Positions 16,551 through 23,720 of a stretch of DNA of 64,000 nucleotides are shown piece by piece. The notes beneath the pieces are model-generated. The model saw only the letters and a list, made by a program, of their open reading frames with translations. It had not been told where the DNA came from and did no database searches. Source of the DNA: Methylococcales bacterium (GTDB taxonomy: Bacteria; Pseudomonadota; Gammaproteobacteria; Methylococcales; Methylomonadaceae); the NCBI GenBank assembly GCA_030693155.1, contig JAUYBJ010000026.1, positions 1 to 64,000 on the forward strand, written 5' to 3'. The position numbers and the translations under genes are program-made. Within the stretch, counting starts at the first letter, position 1. Every line of letters begins with the position of its first letter.

Positions 16551-16834
16551 TATAGAGTTCTCCTCATTAGGTCTGTGGCTTAAAAGCTCTTTATTGTTTT
16601 ATCAATATACCACTAGAAGCCCTTACATTTGAAGTGTTGTATGCAATTGTTTACCTTGATAACTGGTATATTGACAAAGCACAACCAGACTAAAAACCTA
16701 AGCCAATGAACTAGCATGACATTCTTTATAATTTATGCGTGCTAACTGTCATCAAACACGCCACCGCACTGGGTTTTGACTATAAAACAGGAAGGAATAT
16801 AAATACTTGCAGATAAGAAAAACTGACAGACAAT

Positions 16835-16951
16835 AAAAAGCCCCCGTCTGTTTTGCAACATTGTGAGGGCTTGGGTCGCTTGGAAGCGTTGCCTACGGAA
16901 TAATCATCCATTGGTATGATAAGTCAGATAGGCTATAGTTGGTTACACTAT
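16835..16951 (-). ncRNA. Predicted tracrRNA of the type II-C locus
   Basis: 21-bp exact anti-repeat at 16929-16949 (taggctatagttggttacact on +, so the minus-strand RNA is AGUGUAACCAACUAUAGCCUA, complementary to the crRNA repeat 3' half); downstream hairpin CGCTTCCAAGCG; terminator AAGCCC...GGGGGCTTTTT ending near 16835. Confidence 0.82.
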
Positions 16952-16957
16952 GACAAT

Positions 16958-16986
16958 ATATTATCAATAAGGACACAAATGAGCAA
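16958..16986 (-). promoter_or_regulatory. Candidate sigma70-like promoter for tracrRNA, overlapping the cas9 start codon
   Basis: Minus strand TTGCTC (16986-16981) - 17 bp - TAATAT (16963-16958); predicted +1 about 7 nt downstream coincides with the start of the anti-repeat. Confidence 0.55.
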
Positions 16987-19900
16987 GCAAATTTTAGGAC
17001 TGGATTTAGGCAGTAATTCCATTGGTTGGGCATTACTGGAAGCACACGAGGGCAAGCCCGACAAAATTATTCAAATTGGCAGTCGGATTTTTACCAAAGC
17101 CGTTGAAGAAAAAACACCCGTACCCAAAAACGTAAAACGCCGCAATGCCCGATTAACGCGACGCGTTACTCAACGCCGCGCCAGACGTAAATTGCGAATG
17201 CTCAATTATCTTATCAAGCTCACACTATTACCGCCTGAACTCATACATAATCCTGAACCTGAAAAAATCCTCAACGGTTTAGGCAACCCTTACACCTTAC
17301 GCGCCAAAGCACTAGACCACGCGCTCACACCGTTTGAATTGGGGCGCGTGTTTCTTCACTTGGTACAGCTGCGCGGTTTTTTAAGCAATCGTAAAATTCT
17401 GCTGGGCGATATGGCTGATGATCCCGATGTGCAGGACGTATTGGCAGAATTGGAAGCCGAAGCCGACACCAGTAACGAACAGGCAAAAGAAGAAACCAGT
17501 TTTAAAGCGGACATCAGCCAGTTAAGAGCCGCTATCACTGATTCAGGTTATCGCACCCTTGGCGAATACCTCTCCTCATTAGATGTGCATGACTGCCAGC
17601 GCAACCGTATCAGAAACGGCGGGCATTTACGCACCGACCGGCAAATGTACCGTGACGAATTAAATCTAATCTGGCAACAACAAAGCCAGCATCATGCGGT
17701 TTTAACGGATACGGTCAAAGAACAGCTGGCAGACATTATTTTCAAGCAACGCCCGTTAAAATTGAACAGCGACCGCGTAGGACAATGCTCACTTGAGCCG
17801 AAAAACAAACGCGCCAAAATTGCCAGACTGGAATGCCAGCGTTTTCGCTATCTGCAAGACATCAACAACCTGCAATACATCAACCATTCAGGCATAACAA
17901 CGACACTCACCAGCGAAGAAAAACACAGGCTGATAACGCTGTTTGAAAGCACTGCCCACGTCAGTTTTGCGGGTATAAAAAAAGCATTGCAGTTAAAAGG
18001 CGTAGAATTCAACCTGGAAAACGGCAGTAAAAAGTTAAAAGGCAATCTCACCGCCTGTGACATTCGCAAACAGCTACCCGACTGGGACAGTTACGACAAC
18101 GCCCAACAACTAGCATTAGTAGAAGACCTGCTCACCATCACCAAAAAATCGGTACTGAAAAACCGTTTGATAACCCACTGGCGATTATCACCACACACCG
18201 CCGTACAACTGTGTTTAGTGGAATTTGAAGCAGGGCATAGCAATCTGTCTTTGAAAGCCATCAACAAATTACTGCCATTTTTACAACAAGGGCAGATTTA
18301 TTCCGCTGCACGAGTCGGTGCGGGTTATGGTTATGAAATGCAGGACATAACACCCGCCGACAACCTCGGCACACCGCCCGAAACCACCAACCCCATCGTC
18401 AACAAAGCCCTCCATGAATTACGGCGCGTGATTAACGCTATTATTGCCGAATACGGCAAACCCGCTGCGATTCGTATAGAAATGGCGCGGGATCTGGAAA
18501 TGAACACCCAACGCTATCAGGACTACATCAAACAACAAAAGCGCAACACCAAAGCCAACGAAGACGCACAACAAGCCTATAAAGAAGAAGCCCAAAGAAC
18601 CCCGCAACTGGGTTTATCACAAAAAGCGGGCAAAACCGACAAGCTCAAATACCGCTTATGCCAGGAACAAAAAGCAACCTGTATTTACAGCGGCAAATCC
18701 ATCACCCTCGCACAACTGTTCAGCGCACAAATAGAGATCGACCACATCCTGCCTTACAGTCAATCGCTGGATGACTCCTACATGAACAAAGTCGTGTGTT
18801 TTGCCAGTGAAAACCACTACAAAGGACAACGCACCCCCAAAGAGGCATTTAGCGGACACACACGGATAAATGGGAACAAATACGCCACCGCCTGAAATCC
18901 CTGCACAAAAGTAAACAGGCGCGTTTTTCTATCACGGCAAGCGAGTTACAACAGCGTGATTTTATCAGCACCCAACTCAACGACACCCGCCACATCAGCC
19001 GCTTAGCACAAAGCTATCTAGCCGAATTGGGTGCGGATATTTCCGTCAGCAAAGGCATCACTACCGCGTGGCTCAGGCATCAATGGGGACTGAATAACTT
19101 AATCGGAGAAACGGATAACAAAGACCGCACCGACCACCGCCACCATGCGATTGATGCCGTAGTAATCGCCTGTGTTGATAGAAAACTCTATCAAACCCTA
19201 GTGTATGTCGCTAATGACTTGGAGCGCAGACATTCAGAACTGAGCATGAGAGACGTACATATAGACCCGCCTTGGCATCATTTGCGCGAAGATTTAGAAA
19301 TCGCTTTAGAGCAAGTGATTATCGCCCACACCCCGCAACGCAAATTATCAGGCGAACTGCACGAAGTCACAGGCGCGGGTTTTATTCATGGTCTGGGTAA
19401 TGTACATCGTAAAAACCTCGATGCCAGTTTTACCCAAGTCGATAAAATCATCGACGACCGCGTAAAAGAACAGGTACAACAACACCTTGCCCGTCATAAC
19501 AACAACCCCAAAACTGCGTTTGCGGAAAACATCACCGTACTGCACAAAGACGGCAAAACCCCGATTAAACGGGTACGCATTCTGCAATCCAAAACCACGC
19601 TGGACAAGCTGAACAAAACTAAATTTGGCGTAAAAGACAGGCAGGGCAAGGTATTCAAATGGCTGGCATTCGGCAATCTGCATCATGTAGAAATTATCAG
19701 GCATCAGGAAACAGGCGCGTATTCAGGGCAGTTTGTCACCATGATGGAAGCCTCGCACCGTGCCAAAGGCATAAAAATGCCCAAGGAGGCAATTATCAAA
19801 ACCGACCACGGCGCGGCTTATGGTTTTATCATGGCTCTGCATATCAATGACTTGGTGAGTGTGGAAAAAGACGGGCGGCGCGTCTACTATCGGGTGCAGA

Positions 19901-20061
19901 AGCTAGATGCTGGGGTCAATATGATAATGTTTCGTTTACATACTGCCGCTAAATTGGACGATAAATCCGAAGGTTTACATTTGACGGTCAACGAAAAATC
20001 ATTCATCACTTGGCAATTACAAAAACACAGTGTCAATGGGATTGGTAAGCTGACGGAGTAA
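16979..20061 (+). pseudogene. cas9: Cas9 (type II-C size class), frameshifted by an apparent 2-bp (AC) insertion at 18856-18863; 1026 aa if repaired
   Basis: RuvC-I ILGLDLGSNSIGWALLE; bridge helix KRRNARLTRRVTQRRARRKLR; HNH EIDHILPYSQSLDDSYMNKVVCFASENHYKG; then frameshift; RuvC-III DHRHHAIDAVVIAC in the downstream frame. Removing one AC joins ...KEAFSGHTDKWEQIRHRLKSLHKSKQARF... Confidence 0.9.
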
Positions 20062-20095: not shown

Positions 20096-20294
20096 AGAGA
20101 CTGTGAAAGTATTATAAAAATAACTCACAAAACAATTTTTGAATTTTGTAAGTCATTGTTTTTATATAATGTGGGAGGGGCTTTAGCCCCGAAAAGCGAG
20201 GCTAAAGCCTCTCCCACATGAACACTTTCACAGTCTCTAAAGAGACTGTGAAAGTGTTCTATTTTGGAGTCAAAAATCATGATTTTTGACTCCT
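20096..20294. repeat. Stacked palindromic repeats in the cas9-cas1 gap
   Basis: agagactgtgaaagt (20096-20110) inverted at 20224-20238; REP-like hairpin 20171-20217; near-perfect ~40-bp palindrome gaacactttcacagtctct-aa-agagactgtgaaagtgttc (about 20220-20258); palindrome ggagtcaaaaatcatgatttttgactcc (about 20267-20294). Confidence 0.8.
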
Positions 20295-20326
20295 GCAACC
20301 AATAATTTAACATGGGCGCAAGCCCC

Positions 20327-21220
20327 ATGATAAAACGCATCATAGACACCAGCGAAGCCACCTATTTACACGCCAACCATCAACAACTGTTGCTGGACAG
20401 AAACGGCACAGCCATCGCCCGACTGCCGATAGAAGATTTAGGCGTAGTCATCCTGCAACACCCCGCGATTGTTATCACTCAGGCAGTCATTATTGCCTGT
20501 CAGAAGAATAACGTCGTGCTGGTATTCTGTGATGAACGCCATTTGCCTTATTCCGTGTTACTGCCTATTAGTGAAGGCAACACGCTGCACAGTAAAATAC
20601 TACAGCAACAACTGAACGTCAGCCTAGCAACTAAAAAACGGCTGTGGCAACAAGTGGTTAAACAAAAAATCACCCAACAAATGCACACCTTAAAAAATCT
20701 GGATAAGCCTTACAAGCCATTAGAACGACTGGCGGACAACGTTAAAACAGGTGATCCCGACAATTTAGAAGCCCAAGCCGCACAACATTATTGGCGGTTA
20801 TTGTTTGGTAATGACTTTAGGCGTGATGTGGAATTAGACGGTATCAACAGCCTATTGAATTATGGCTATGCCATCATGCGGGCAATGGTGGCACGCGCCA
20901 TTGTCGGCAGCGGCTTGCATCCCGCGCTGGGCTTGCACCATCACAACCAGTACAACGGGCTGTGTTTGGCGGATGATTTAATGGAACCGTTCAGACCGTG
21001 GATTGATTATCGCGTTTATCAAATAGCACAACACCATGCCACGCTGGACATCAACAGGGAAAACAAAATACCGCTACTGAATTTATTATCCGAAACCGTA
21101 GAATGGGAGCAGCAAACCATGCCCTTGATGGTCGCCTGTCATTACTTGATGGCGCAGTTAAAACGCGCCTTTGAAGACCGCCGCATCACCCTGAACTACC
21201 CTAAAATAGTGAGACCTTAA
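20327..21220 (+). CDS. cas1: CRISPR-associated endonuclease Cas1 (type II)
   Basis: RIIDTSEATYLHANHQQLLLDRNGTAIARLPIEDLGVVILQHPAIVITQ; ALGLHHHNQYNGLCLADDLMEPFRPWID. Start at MIKRIIDTS. Confidence 0.95.
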   Translation: MIKRIIDTSEATYLHANHQQLLLDRNGTAIARLPIEDLGVVILQHPAIVITQAVIIACQKNNVVLVFCDERHLPYSVLLPISEGNTLHSKILQQQLNVSLATKKRLWQQVVKQKITQQMHTLKNLDKPYKPLERLADNVKTGDPDNLEAQAAQHYWRLLFGNDFRRDVELDGINSLLNYGYAIMRAMVARAIVGSGLHPALGLHHHNQYNGLCLADDLMEPFRPWIDYRVYQIAQHHATLDINRENKIPLLNLLSETVEWEQQTMPLMVACHYLMAQLKRAFEDRRITLNYPKIVRP

Positions 21221-21247
21221 CCGATGATTTTTGGAGGCTTAAATACC

Positions 21248-21553
21248 ATGTGGGTAATTGTTATGTTTGATTTACCGACCGACAGCGCAGAAGCCAGAAA
21301 ACAATACACGATTTTTCGTGAACATTTGCTTAAAGACGGCTTTACCATGATGCAGTATTCGGTTTATAAACGGCATTGTGCCAGTGAAGAAAATGCGGAC
21401 GCTCATGTGCAACGCATCAAAGCCGACTTACCGCCCGATGGTGAAGTGAGGATTATCAAAATAACCGATAAACAGTTTGGCAGAATGCAGGTTTTTTATG
21501 GAAATTTTCGCAAAGAAACAGAATTGCCACCTGAACAACTGTCACTTTTTTAA
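21248..21553 (+). CDS. cas2: CRISPR-associated endonuclease Cas2
   Basis: MWVIVMFDLPTDSAEARKQYTIFREHLLKDGFTMMQYSVYKRHC. Confidence 0.94.
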   Translation: MWVIVMFDLPTDSAEARKQYTIFREHLLKDGFTMMQYSVYKRHCASEENADAHVQRIKADLPPDGEVRIIKITDKQFGRMQVFYGNFRKETELPPEQLSLF

Positions 21554-21603
21554 ACAAAAAAGTGACAGTTTATTTAGAAAAAACAACTGGTTATGAGAGG
21601 GCT

Positions 21604-22363
21604 AGTGTAACCAACTATAGCCTACCCGCAAACCACAACACCTCATACCATTGCCCTTCGCTATCTCTTAGTGTAACCAACTATAGCCTACCCGCAAACC
21701 ACAACCCGTCTAAGTCCTTATGGTCGTGTCTATAGAGTGTAACCAACTATAGCCTACCCGCAAACCACAACCTATATTCCCCACTGTTCAATTCATCAAT
21801 AAGTGTAACCAACTATAGCCTACCCGCAAACCACAACAAGTCGCCATTGCTTGCCAGTTTGCAATTTAGTGTAACCAACTATAGCCTACCCGCAAACCAC
21901 AACCTGTCGGGGGTGTGTTGATAGCGGGCTTAGAGTGTAACCAACTATAGCCTACCCGCAAACCACAACTAGGTTTTAACGCGACCTCATACAGCATTAA
22001 GTGTAACCAACTATAGCCTACCCGCAAACCACAACTGAAGTGTTGGCACTGACCGCAATTTACGAGTGTAACCAACTATAGCCTACCCGCAAACCCACTG
22101 CCATTAAGTTAAGGATTTTTACAGAATTGTGGGAGTGGCTTTAGCCACGATAATCGTGGCTAAAGCCACTCCCACAGTGTGCATTCCCACGCGACTCATC
22201 ACTGCCATTAAGTTAAGGATTTTTCCGTTCGCCCTGAGCTTGTCGAAGGGTGAATGGAAAAATTCCAGTCCCGAAGTTAAGCCGTTCATGCTTCGACTGT
22301 TCGACAAGCTCACAGCTCAGCACGAACGGCTTAAATTAATGGTAGTGACCCGCAAACCACAAC
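21604..22363 (-). CRISPR. CRISPR array: 8 repeats of 36 bp, 7 spacers of 29-30 bp; the last repeat is split by an inserted element
   Basis: Repeat (+) AGTGTAACCAACTATAGCCTACCCGCAAACCACAAC at 21604, 21670, 21736, 21802, 21868, 21934, 22000 and 22065 (the 8th = 22065-22095 plus 22359-22363 after the insertion). crRNA-sense repeat GTTGTGGTTTGCGGGTAGGCTATAGTTGGTTACACT inferred from the tracrRNA anti-repeat strand. Confidence 0.97.
22096..22347. mobile_element. 252-bp non-autonomous (MITE-like) element with IS4-like ends inserted in CRISPR repeat 8
   Basis: TIRs CACTGCCATTAAGTTAAG / revcomp of CTTAAATTAATGGTAGTG (CACTACCATTAATTTAAG), 16/18 identical; 11-bp direct duplication ACCCGCAAACC at 22085-22095 and 22348-22358; no transposase ORF. 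Confidence 0.88.
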
Positions 22364-22370
22364 CAACCAA

Positions 22371-23720
22371 CTACTTGCCGATACAAAAACTGGAAAATAT
22401 TTTGCCCAGTAAATCATCAGAGCTGAACTGTCCTGTGATTTCAGCGAGGGCATTTTGCGCTTGCTTTAAATCTTCGGCAACCAATTCACCTGCCAAGCTG
22501 GTTTGTAGTTGCGATAAGGCACGGGTGACGGATTCATAACCTTGATTTAAGGCTTCGATGTGCCGTCTGCGGGCGATGAACACGTTTTCAGTGTTGGCAT
22601 TGAAATCCACGCTTTGTTTCAGGTGTTCAGTGAGCAGTTCCATGCCCTGCCCTGTTTTGATGGACAGGTAGATGTCGCTTTGATGTTCATGGTGTTTAAT
22701 TGCTGGTGTGATGCCCAGTAAATCAATTTTGTTGTAGATTTTGGTGATGTCGATATGGGCGGGTAATGAGGCGAGTAATTCGGGATCTTCGGTTTCTCTG
22801 GCATCAATCAACAGCAGAATTTTGTCGGCTTTTTCAATTTCTGCCCACGCGCGGCGGATGCCTTCCTGTTCGATAGCGTTATCGCTGTCGTGCAAGCCTG
22901 CGGTGTCGATGATGTGCAGCGGCATTCCATCCAGCTGAATACGTTCGCGCAATACGTCGCGCGTTGTACCCGCTATATCGGTAACGATAGCGGCTTCATG
23001 TCCTGCCAGTGCGTTCAATAAGCTGGACTTACCTGCGTTGGGTTTGCCCGCGAGTACGATGGTCATACCGTCATGCAGTAAGCGTCCTTGATTGGCAGTT
23101 TTTTGGATGTGTTCAAGTCGCTCTAATAAACGAATAAGGCGATTTTCAACCACGCCATCACTGAGAAAATCAATTTCTTCATCGACAAAATCAATCGCGG
23201 CTTCTACATAAATGCGCAGTTCGGTGAGTTCTTCAACCAGTTGGTTGATTTGCTCGGAGAATACCCCCTGCATGGATTTTTGTGCGGAACGCACTGCTTG
23301 TTCGGTGCTGCTGGTGATGAGGTCGGCAACCGCTTCGGCTTGGGCTAAATCCAGTTTGTTATTTAAAAATGCGCGTTCGGTGAATTCACCTGCATTGGCG
23401 AGCCTCGCGCCCAGACTGATAACGCGGCGTAATACCATATCCAGCACCACTGCGCCGCCGTGTCCTTGCAATTCAAGGATGTCTTCGCCTGTGTAGGAAT
23501 GGGGATTGGGGAAATACAGGGCGATGCCTGAATCAATAATACTGCCGTCGCTATCGAGAAACGAGGTGTACACGGCGTGGCGTGGTGTTATCGGTTTATT
23601 GAGCAATTGACGGGCAATATCGGCAACTAACACGCCTGAGATGCGGATAATGCCGACTCCACCGTTACCTGAGGGTGTGGCGATAGCGGCGATGGTATCG
23701 GTATTTTTTAACATTATCAT
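22371..23720 (-). CDS. mnmE: tRNA uridine-5-carboxymethylaminomethyl modification GTPase MnmE
   Basis: [49 protein letters not shown]-terminal FCIGK. Confidence 0.97.

Follow-up and report, generated by a model that had tools for sequence, protein, structure and literature searches.

What has split the terminal repeat of a CRISPR array, how did it come to be there, and what has the array lost by it? The question arises in a stretch of 64,000 nucleotides, referred to below as the window, from a methane-oxidising bacterium of the order Methylococcales, which falls in the same genus as Crenothrix sp. D3 (G007, MBQZ01000019.1). The D3 genome carries the identical repeat and was used for comparison along with the Kiruna bin-09260 MAG (G003) and the congeners G001, G002, and G006. 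The features to which this report refers are collected in Table 1.

Table 1. Features of the CRISPR-Cas locus and of the inserted element, in positions of the window
Feature	Position	Strand	Description
tracrRNA candidate	16831-16949	-	anti-repeat, then a terminator-like stretch; upstream of cas9
cas9	16916-20061	+	reading frame broken near 18856-18863 by 2 inserted bp; a pseudogene, barring a sequencing error
Second MITE-like element	20096-20238		unrelated to the insert; between cas9 and cas1; ends AGAGACTGTGAAAGT, strong hairpins
cas1	20312-21220	+	Cas1_NMENI type, open; true start may be slightly downstream
cas2	21224-21553	+	open
Leader motif	21590-21603	+	GTTATGAGAGGGCT; adjoins repeat 1 at the cas2 side, where spacers are probably acquired
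CRISPR array	21604-22363	-	type II-C by content; 8 repeats of 36 bp, 7 spacers
Repeat 8, first 31 bases	22065-22095	+	ends in the left duplication copy (22085-22095)
Insert	22096-22347		252 bp, read as a composite MITE
MITE-a	22096-22176		hairpin-type MITE, left part only; right end missing
Carried-over flank	22177-22199		23 bp; contains one half of a former REP target, TTCCCACGCGACTCAT, beside MITE-b
MITE-b	22200-22347		complete MITE of 148 bp; in the family, its relatives measure 134-171 bp
Right duplication copy	22348-22358		11 bp, ACCCGCAAACC
Repeat 8, last 5 bases	22359-22363	+	ACAAC
mnmE	22371-23720	-	intact; ends 8 bp from the array

The footprint in the eighth repeat

Repeats 1-7 of the array are perfect over their 36 bp, and the eighth is interrupted after 31 bases. 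Its left fragment, which reads AGTGTAACCAACTATAGCCTACCCGCAAACC, is followed by the 252-bp insert, a second and perfect copy of the 11-bp sequence ACCCGCAAACC with which that fragment ends, and the five final bases of the repeat. When the insert and one 11-bp copy were deleted in a scripted excision, the exact 36-bp repeat was regained. The coordinates and the excision result reported in the initial annotation were thereby confirmed, as were the imperfect inverted-repeat ends that it quoted, CACTGCCATTAAGTTAAG and CACTACCATTAATTTAAG, the right terminal repeat having two mismatches relative to the left one. The range that it assigned to the insertion, 22085-22363, also takes in both copies of the duplication and the last five bases of the repeat.

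The 18-bp end of the insert occurs in exact form 23 times in the host's own 3.7-Mb genome and 123 times in the complete genome of a relative (G017), as opposed to no occurrences of a reversed-letter control, and chance is excluded because of these counts. Copies with the same boundaries were found elsewhere, and the arrays of two sister species, D3 and the Kiruna bin, finish in an uninterrupted repeat without the insert. The insertion of a transposon into the terminal CRISPR repeat is confirmed as a real event with a clean footprint.

A composite MITE and its probable IS4-family partner

The segment had initially been taken for a single, simple MITE, a reading that we reject because a second left end lies within it: the left end of the insert recurs exactly, over 25 bp and in direct orientation, at 22200-22224. 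Judged by its sequence, the insert is composite and joins two MITE types with old target DNA, namely the left portion of one MITE of the hairpin type, 23 bp of flank, and a complete 148-bp MITE, which apparently moved as one unit. The complete form of MITE-a, 112 bp in length, is found on another contig of the own genome, C51 (L018, 554-665). MITE-b has relatives with 96% identity in G003 and 92-93% in G002 and G007, along with shorter relatives of 134 bp in the family, 19 of which were read from one complete genome, that of G017; overall, 28 of the 39 genera sampled match this inner unit as query, and many of the matches within the genus span the whole unit. No transposase gene is present in the insert, and the single ORF of at least 70 aa that overlaps it continues into the DNA opposite mnmE. 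The Rfam hits on hairpins, mir-558 among them, fall far short of the gathering scores and were regarded as chance.

Could such a composite have formed in place, a simple MITE having arrived first and the rest having been added inside the array by nested insertion or by recombination? Nesting is common for these elements, and the identical 25-bp left end common to both parts could recombine. However, a nested MITE-b would leave a duplication on both of its sides, whereas ACGCGACTCAT is found only on the left, and the CRISPR duplication directly abuts the right end of MITE-b. Likewise, the half REP target TTCCCACGCGACTCAT, which corresponds to the usual landing site of MITE-b, lies only to the left of this element and points to an earlier home outside the array. 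We consider formation in place to be unlikely.

In the account that we prefer, MITE-b would have landed in a REP palindrome beside a truncated hairpin element, MITE-a, at a site outside the array. A transposase would then have paired the left end of MITE-a with the right end of MITE-b, these being the outermost compatible ends, and the composite, including the captured half REP, would have been carried to the CRISPR repeat. In this account, the right end would still be active in spite of its two mismatches. The order MITE-a, REP, MITE-b recurs with slightly different spacing on contig C192 of the own genome and at its counterpart in G002; this arrangement is a recurrence of the order and not the immediate donor, and no second copy or donor of the whole 252-bp composite was found in the own genome and the relatives searched.

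As for the mobiliser, the initial annotation had proposed an IS4-family transposase on account of the ends and of the duplication length, and the evidence does support a non-autonomous element that has IS4-family ends and duplicated 11 bp of its target. Among the transposase loci fetched from the genus, we picked out an autonomous element of 1398 bp in the congener G001, whose 18-bp ends on both sides are identical to the left end of the MITE and which is flanked on both sides by GGTCGTTAGCT, an 11-bp duplication. The transposase ORF of this element (~378 aa) matches the NCBIfam profile NF033592, IS4 family transposase, with 159 bits against a cut-off of 115, and PF01609 with 65 bits against a cut-off of 23. 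In the own genome, a protein search located the C-terminal part of a related transposase at the ends of seven contigs, the longest piece having 64% identity. Six of these seven contig ends were read (C33, C107, C117, C187, C210, and C239); they begin from the same end sequence and adjoin REP sequence, mostly TTCCCACGCGGCGCGT. Three more contig ends (C75, C95, and C255) carry a related end, CACTGCGATTAAGTTAAG, and are probably the other side of the same IS element. No full-length IS is assembled in the own genome, where only its ends are seen, and this is the pattern of a multicopy IS in a short-read assembly.

The short, gene-less, and dispersed MITE copies have an IS4-family partner transposase, and the insert has terminal repeats in common with it, identical over the 18 bp on the left and with two mismatches on the right. 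Past the 18-bp end, the interiors differ, reading …AAGGATTTTTCCG in the MITE and …AAGAAAAATCGCC or …AAGCAAGCGGCAC in the IS; derivation of the MITE interior from the IS by deletion was not found, the ends alone being common to both. Common ends without a common interior are seen in many MITEs. The proposed mobiliser has thus gained a same-ended transposase in a congener and partial copies at contig ends of the own strain, while its action in trans is something that we infer from the common ends and the duplication length, the probable source being the multicopy IS with the same 18-bp ends. IS4 of E. coli resembles the present element in its 18-bp ends, which are related in sequence (…GTTAAG), and in the length of its target duplications, about 11-13 bp, and it differs in the end sequence and in the size of the transposase. 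In G017, the relatives of the partner transposase that were found are distant, with 25-29% identity, despite the many exact ends present there; this genome holds a large MITE population whose autonomous partner may have been lost or have diverged.

Regarding the choice of target, 80 paired-end elements were listed, including a few overlapping pairings or near-identical sites. A duplication within one mismatch was found for 46 of the 80 (34 of 11 bp, 9 of 12 bp, and 3 of 10 bp), which corresponds to the constant length of 11 bp, sometimes 10-12 bp, of an IS4-family MITE. The target consensus is ACGCnnnGCGT, frequently inside TTCCC...GGGAA or GGTAC...GTACC palindromes, and insertion is usually into REP palindromes. 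The CRISPR site, with 1 of 10 pairs, is non-palindromic, and on a position matrix it falls below the median of the known sites, 40% of which score no better. Because of these two properties, the CRISPR repeat is an acceptable secondary target and not a preferred one, and a strong target preference was rejected as the reason for the insertion.

An apparently decayed locus and the probable effect of the insertion

By its content of cas9, cas1, cas2, an array, and a tracrRNA candidate, the locus classifies as type II-C; csn2 and cas4 are absent, there is no extra gene between cas2 and mnmE, and the profile matches comprise TIGR01865, TIGR03639 (cas1_NMENI), and TIGR01573. The tracrRNA candidate was recognized by comparing sequences, against the repeat as well as against the loci of D3 and the Kiruna bin, and, judging from its anti-repeat, the crRNA strand would be the minus strand. 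The cas9 frames of D3 and of the Kiruna bin are intact, with 1071 and 1059 codons, respectively, and relative to them the gene of the window is frameshifted by 2 bp inserted in an AC run near 18856, which, barring a sequencing error, leaves no intact, interference-competent cas9 in the window.

For the second MITE-like element, the own genome gives dozens of matches, and the boundaries are the same in many of them; the element was not found in the cas locus of D3. A 2-bp duplication is suggested by the two sites inspected. An extra copy of the end of this element follows at 20241-20259. The CRISPR-Cas locus looks decayed because cas9 is frameshifted and because this element sits between cas9 and cas1. 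Array erosion, as the initial annotation had read the insertion, is hence a reasonable view, but the clearest signal of decay is the frameshifted cas9, which it did not mention.

Among the congeners, no empty site of the MITE was found in the 3' flanks of mnmE; only G001 keeps the synteny, but the CRISPR-Cas locus is missing entirely, and there (L205, C76) cytochrome bc1 genes adjoin mnmE. The same CRISPR-Cas system is found in other neighbourhoods in D3 and in the Kiruna bin, and the locus itself seems to move or to get lost. G006 and G003 also contain orphan units of a leader and a single repeat without spacers (L148, 1724-1759; L149, 1615-1650; L145, 443-478), consisting of GATTATGAGAG..CT and then one repeat (variant AAATCACAAC), with the L145 unit placed within a duplicated cas2 region; these units are possibly ectopic or copied. 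Solo repeats without a leader occur on contig C4 of the own genome (L150, 1097-1132), directly after the end of an apparent outer-membrane protein gene, and in G006 (L147, 1385-1420), adjoining an apparent coding region, and they may be scars of off-target integration.

The acquisition end of the array is most likely on the cas2 side, because the leader motif is conserved there and the far-end repeat of D3 is degenerate, carrying a substitution. The motif, GATTATGAGAGGGCT (in the window GTTATGAGAGGGCT), adjoins repeat 1 in D3 and in the window, and nearly so in the Kiruna bin, where it stands in the leader on the cas2 side. Acquisition next to cas2 was shown in another II-C system (PMC6008519), and spacer acquisition at this position is also covered in a review (PMC12638026). 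By this reading, the MITE struck the oldest repeat, which is distal and on the mnmE side. On the crRNA strand, repeat 8 precedes spacer 7 and is the handle for no spacer; beside spacer 7 it is without only its first 5 bases, and any repeat-embedded promoter within the 31 bases that are kept would remain. The insertion is probably near-neutral, as expected from the entry of new spacers at the cas2 side, the lack of a handle function of repeat 8, the 31 bases retained, and the frameshift of cas9.

It had been suggested instead that the insertion may block spacer addition or transcription from this side, and, in a stronger form, the insertion would have disabled the array in one of these ways and been kept or selected for that, an idea already put forward for IS insertions in cas genes. 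Insertions of IS and MITE elements that inactivate cas genes are documented (PMC10359306), and the struck repeat is the first of the array on the crRNA strand. However, the conserved leader lies at the opposite end, repeat 8 is distal, and its 31 spacer-proximal nucleotides are intact, so that such a block is unlikely; furthermore, if the frameshift of cas9 came first, there was probably little left to disable. Disablement followed by retention or selection is, in our estimate, quite improbable. Even more doubtful is that the MITE gives the array a new promoter, or a transcription start reading into spacer 7. A sigma-70-like pair with 18-bp spacing spans the junction, with ATGGCA (22104-22099) in the transposon end and TATAGT (22080-22075) in the repeat, but a hybrid promoter was rejected because finding 2 promoter-like matches, when shuffled sequence is expected to give 1.1, is within chance.

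The least credible proposal takes the segment for an ancestral array trailer or for a chimera that arose during assembly at a dispersed repeat. In its favour is the chimera-prone setting of such a repeat in an assembly of 281 contigs with 5.6% estimated contamination. It was rejected because repeat bases 21-31 are duplicated exactly, because excision gives a perfect repeat, and because the two sister arrays lack the segment; the duplication length also agrees with dozens of other copies, and a chimera would need a matching 11-bp duplication within the 72-kb contig. To the whole account, in which a composite MITE, mobilised in trans by an IS4-family IS, would have entered the terminal repeat by ordinary transposition, leaving an 11-bp duplication and near-neutral in effect, we assign a probability of roughly 0.9.

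Comparison with known insertions

The locus provides a clean case in which a transposable element has entered a CRISPR repeat in a methane-oxidising relative of Crenothrix, ties a MITE to an IS4-family element that strongly prefers REP palindromes in methane-oxidising bacteria, and indicates that small elements can travel as a composite, using the ends of two neighbouring copies. With its frameshifted cas9 and its second MITE-like element, it also illustrates the decay of a II-C locus, and it opens no new question on the workings of CRISPR.

Insertion sequences that target REP elements are known, among them ISRm22 (PMC1525189), which likewise belongs to the IS4 family and has a palindromic REP target, but makes duplications of 6 bp rather than 11 bp and lives in another host. 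In Haloquadratum walsbyi HBSQ001, the MITE HqIRS37 is found in a CRISPR spacer (PMC3119063), and as here a MITE sits in a residual array with cas functions lost; that case differs in being archaeal, in affecting a spacer and not a repeat, in the element family, and in that all cas genes are missing. In Xanthomonas citri pv. citri, an IS interrupts the repeat that separates two spacers, and another strain has one within a spacer (PMC6889575); these are likewise mobile elements in a CRISPR array, although they are full IS21-family elements and not MITEs. The naturally occurring insertions of IS and MITE elements mentioned above (PMC10359306), which likewise affect CRISPR-Cas loci, strike cas genes and abolish function, whereas the element described here struck a terminal repeat. 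CRISPR arrays invaded by a MITE or an IS are therefore already documented, and the present case is an ordinary and well-preserved example of them, in which the detail added to a known kind is composite transposition.
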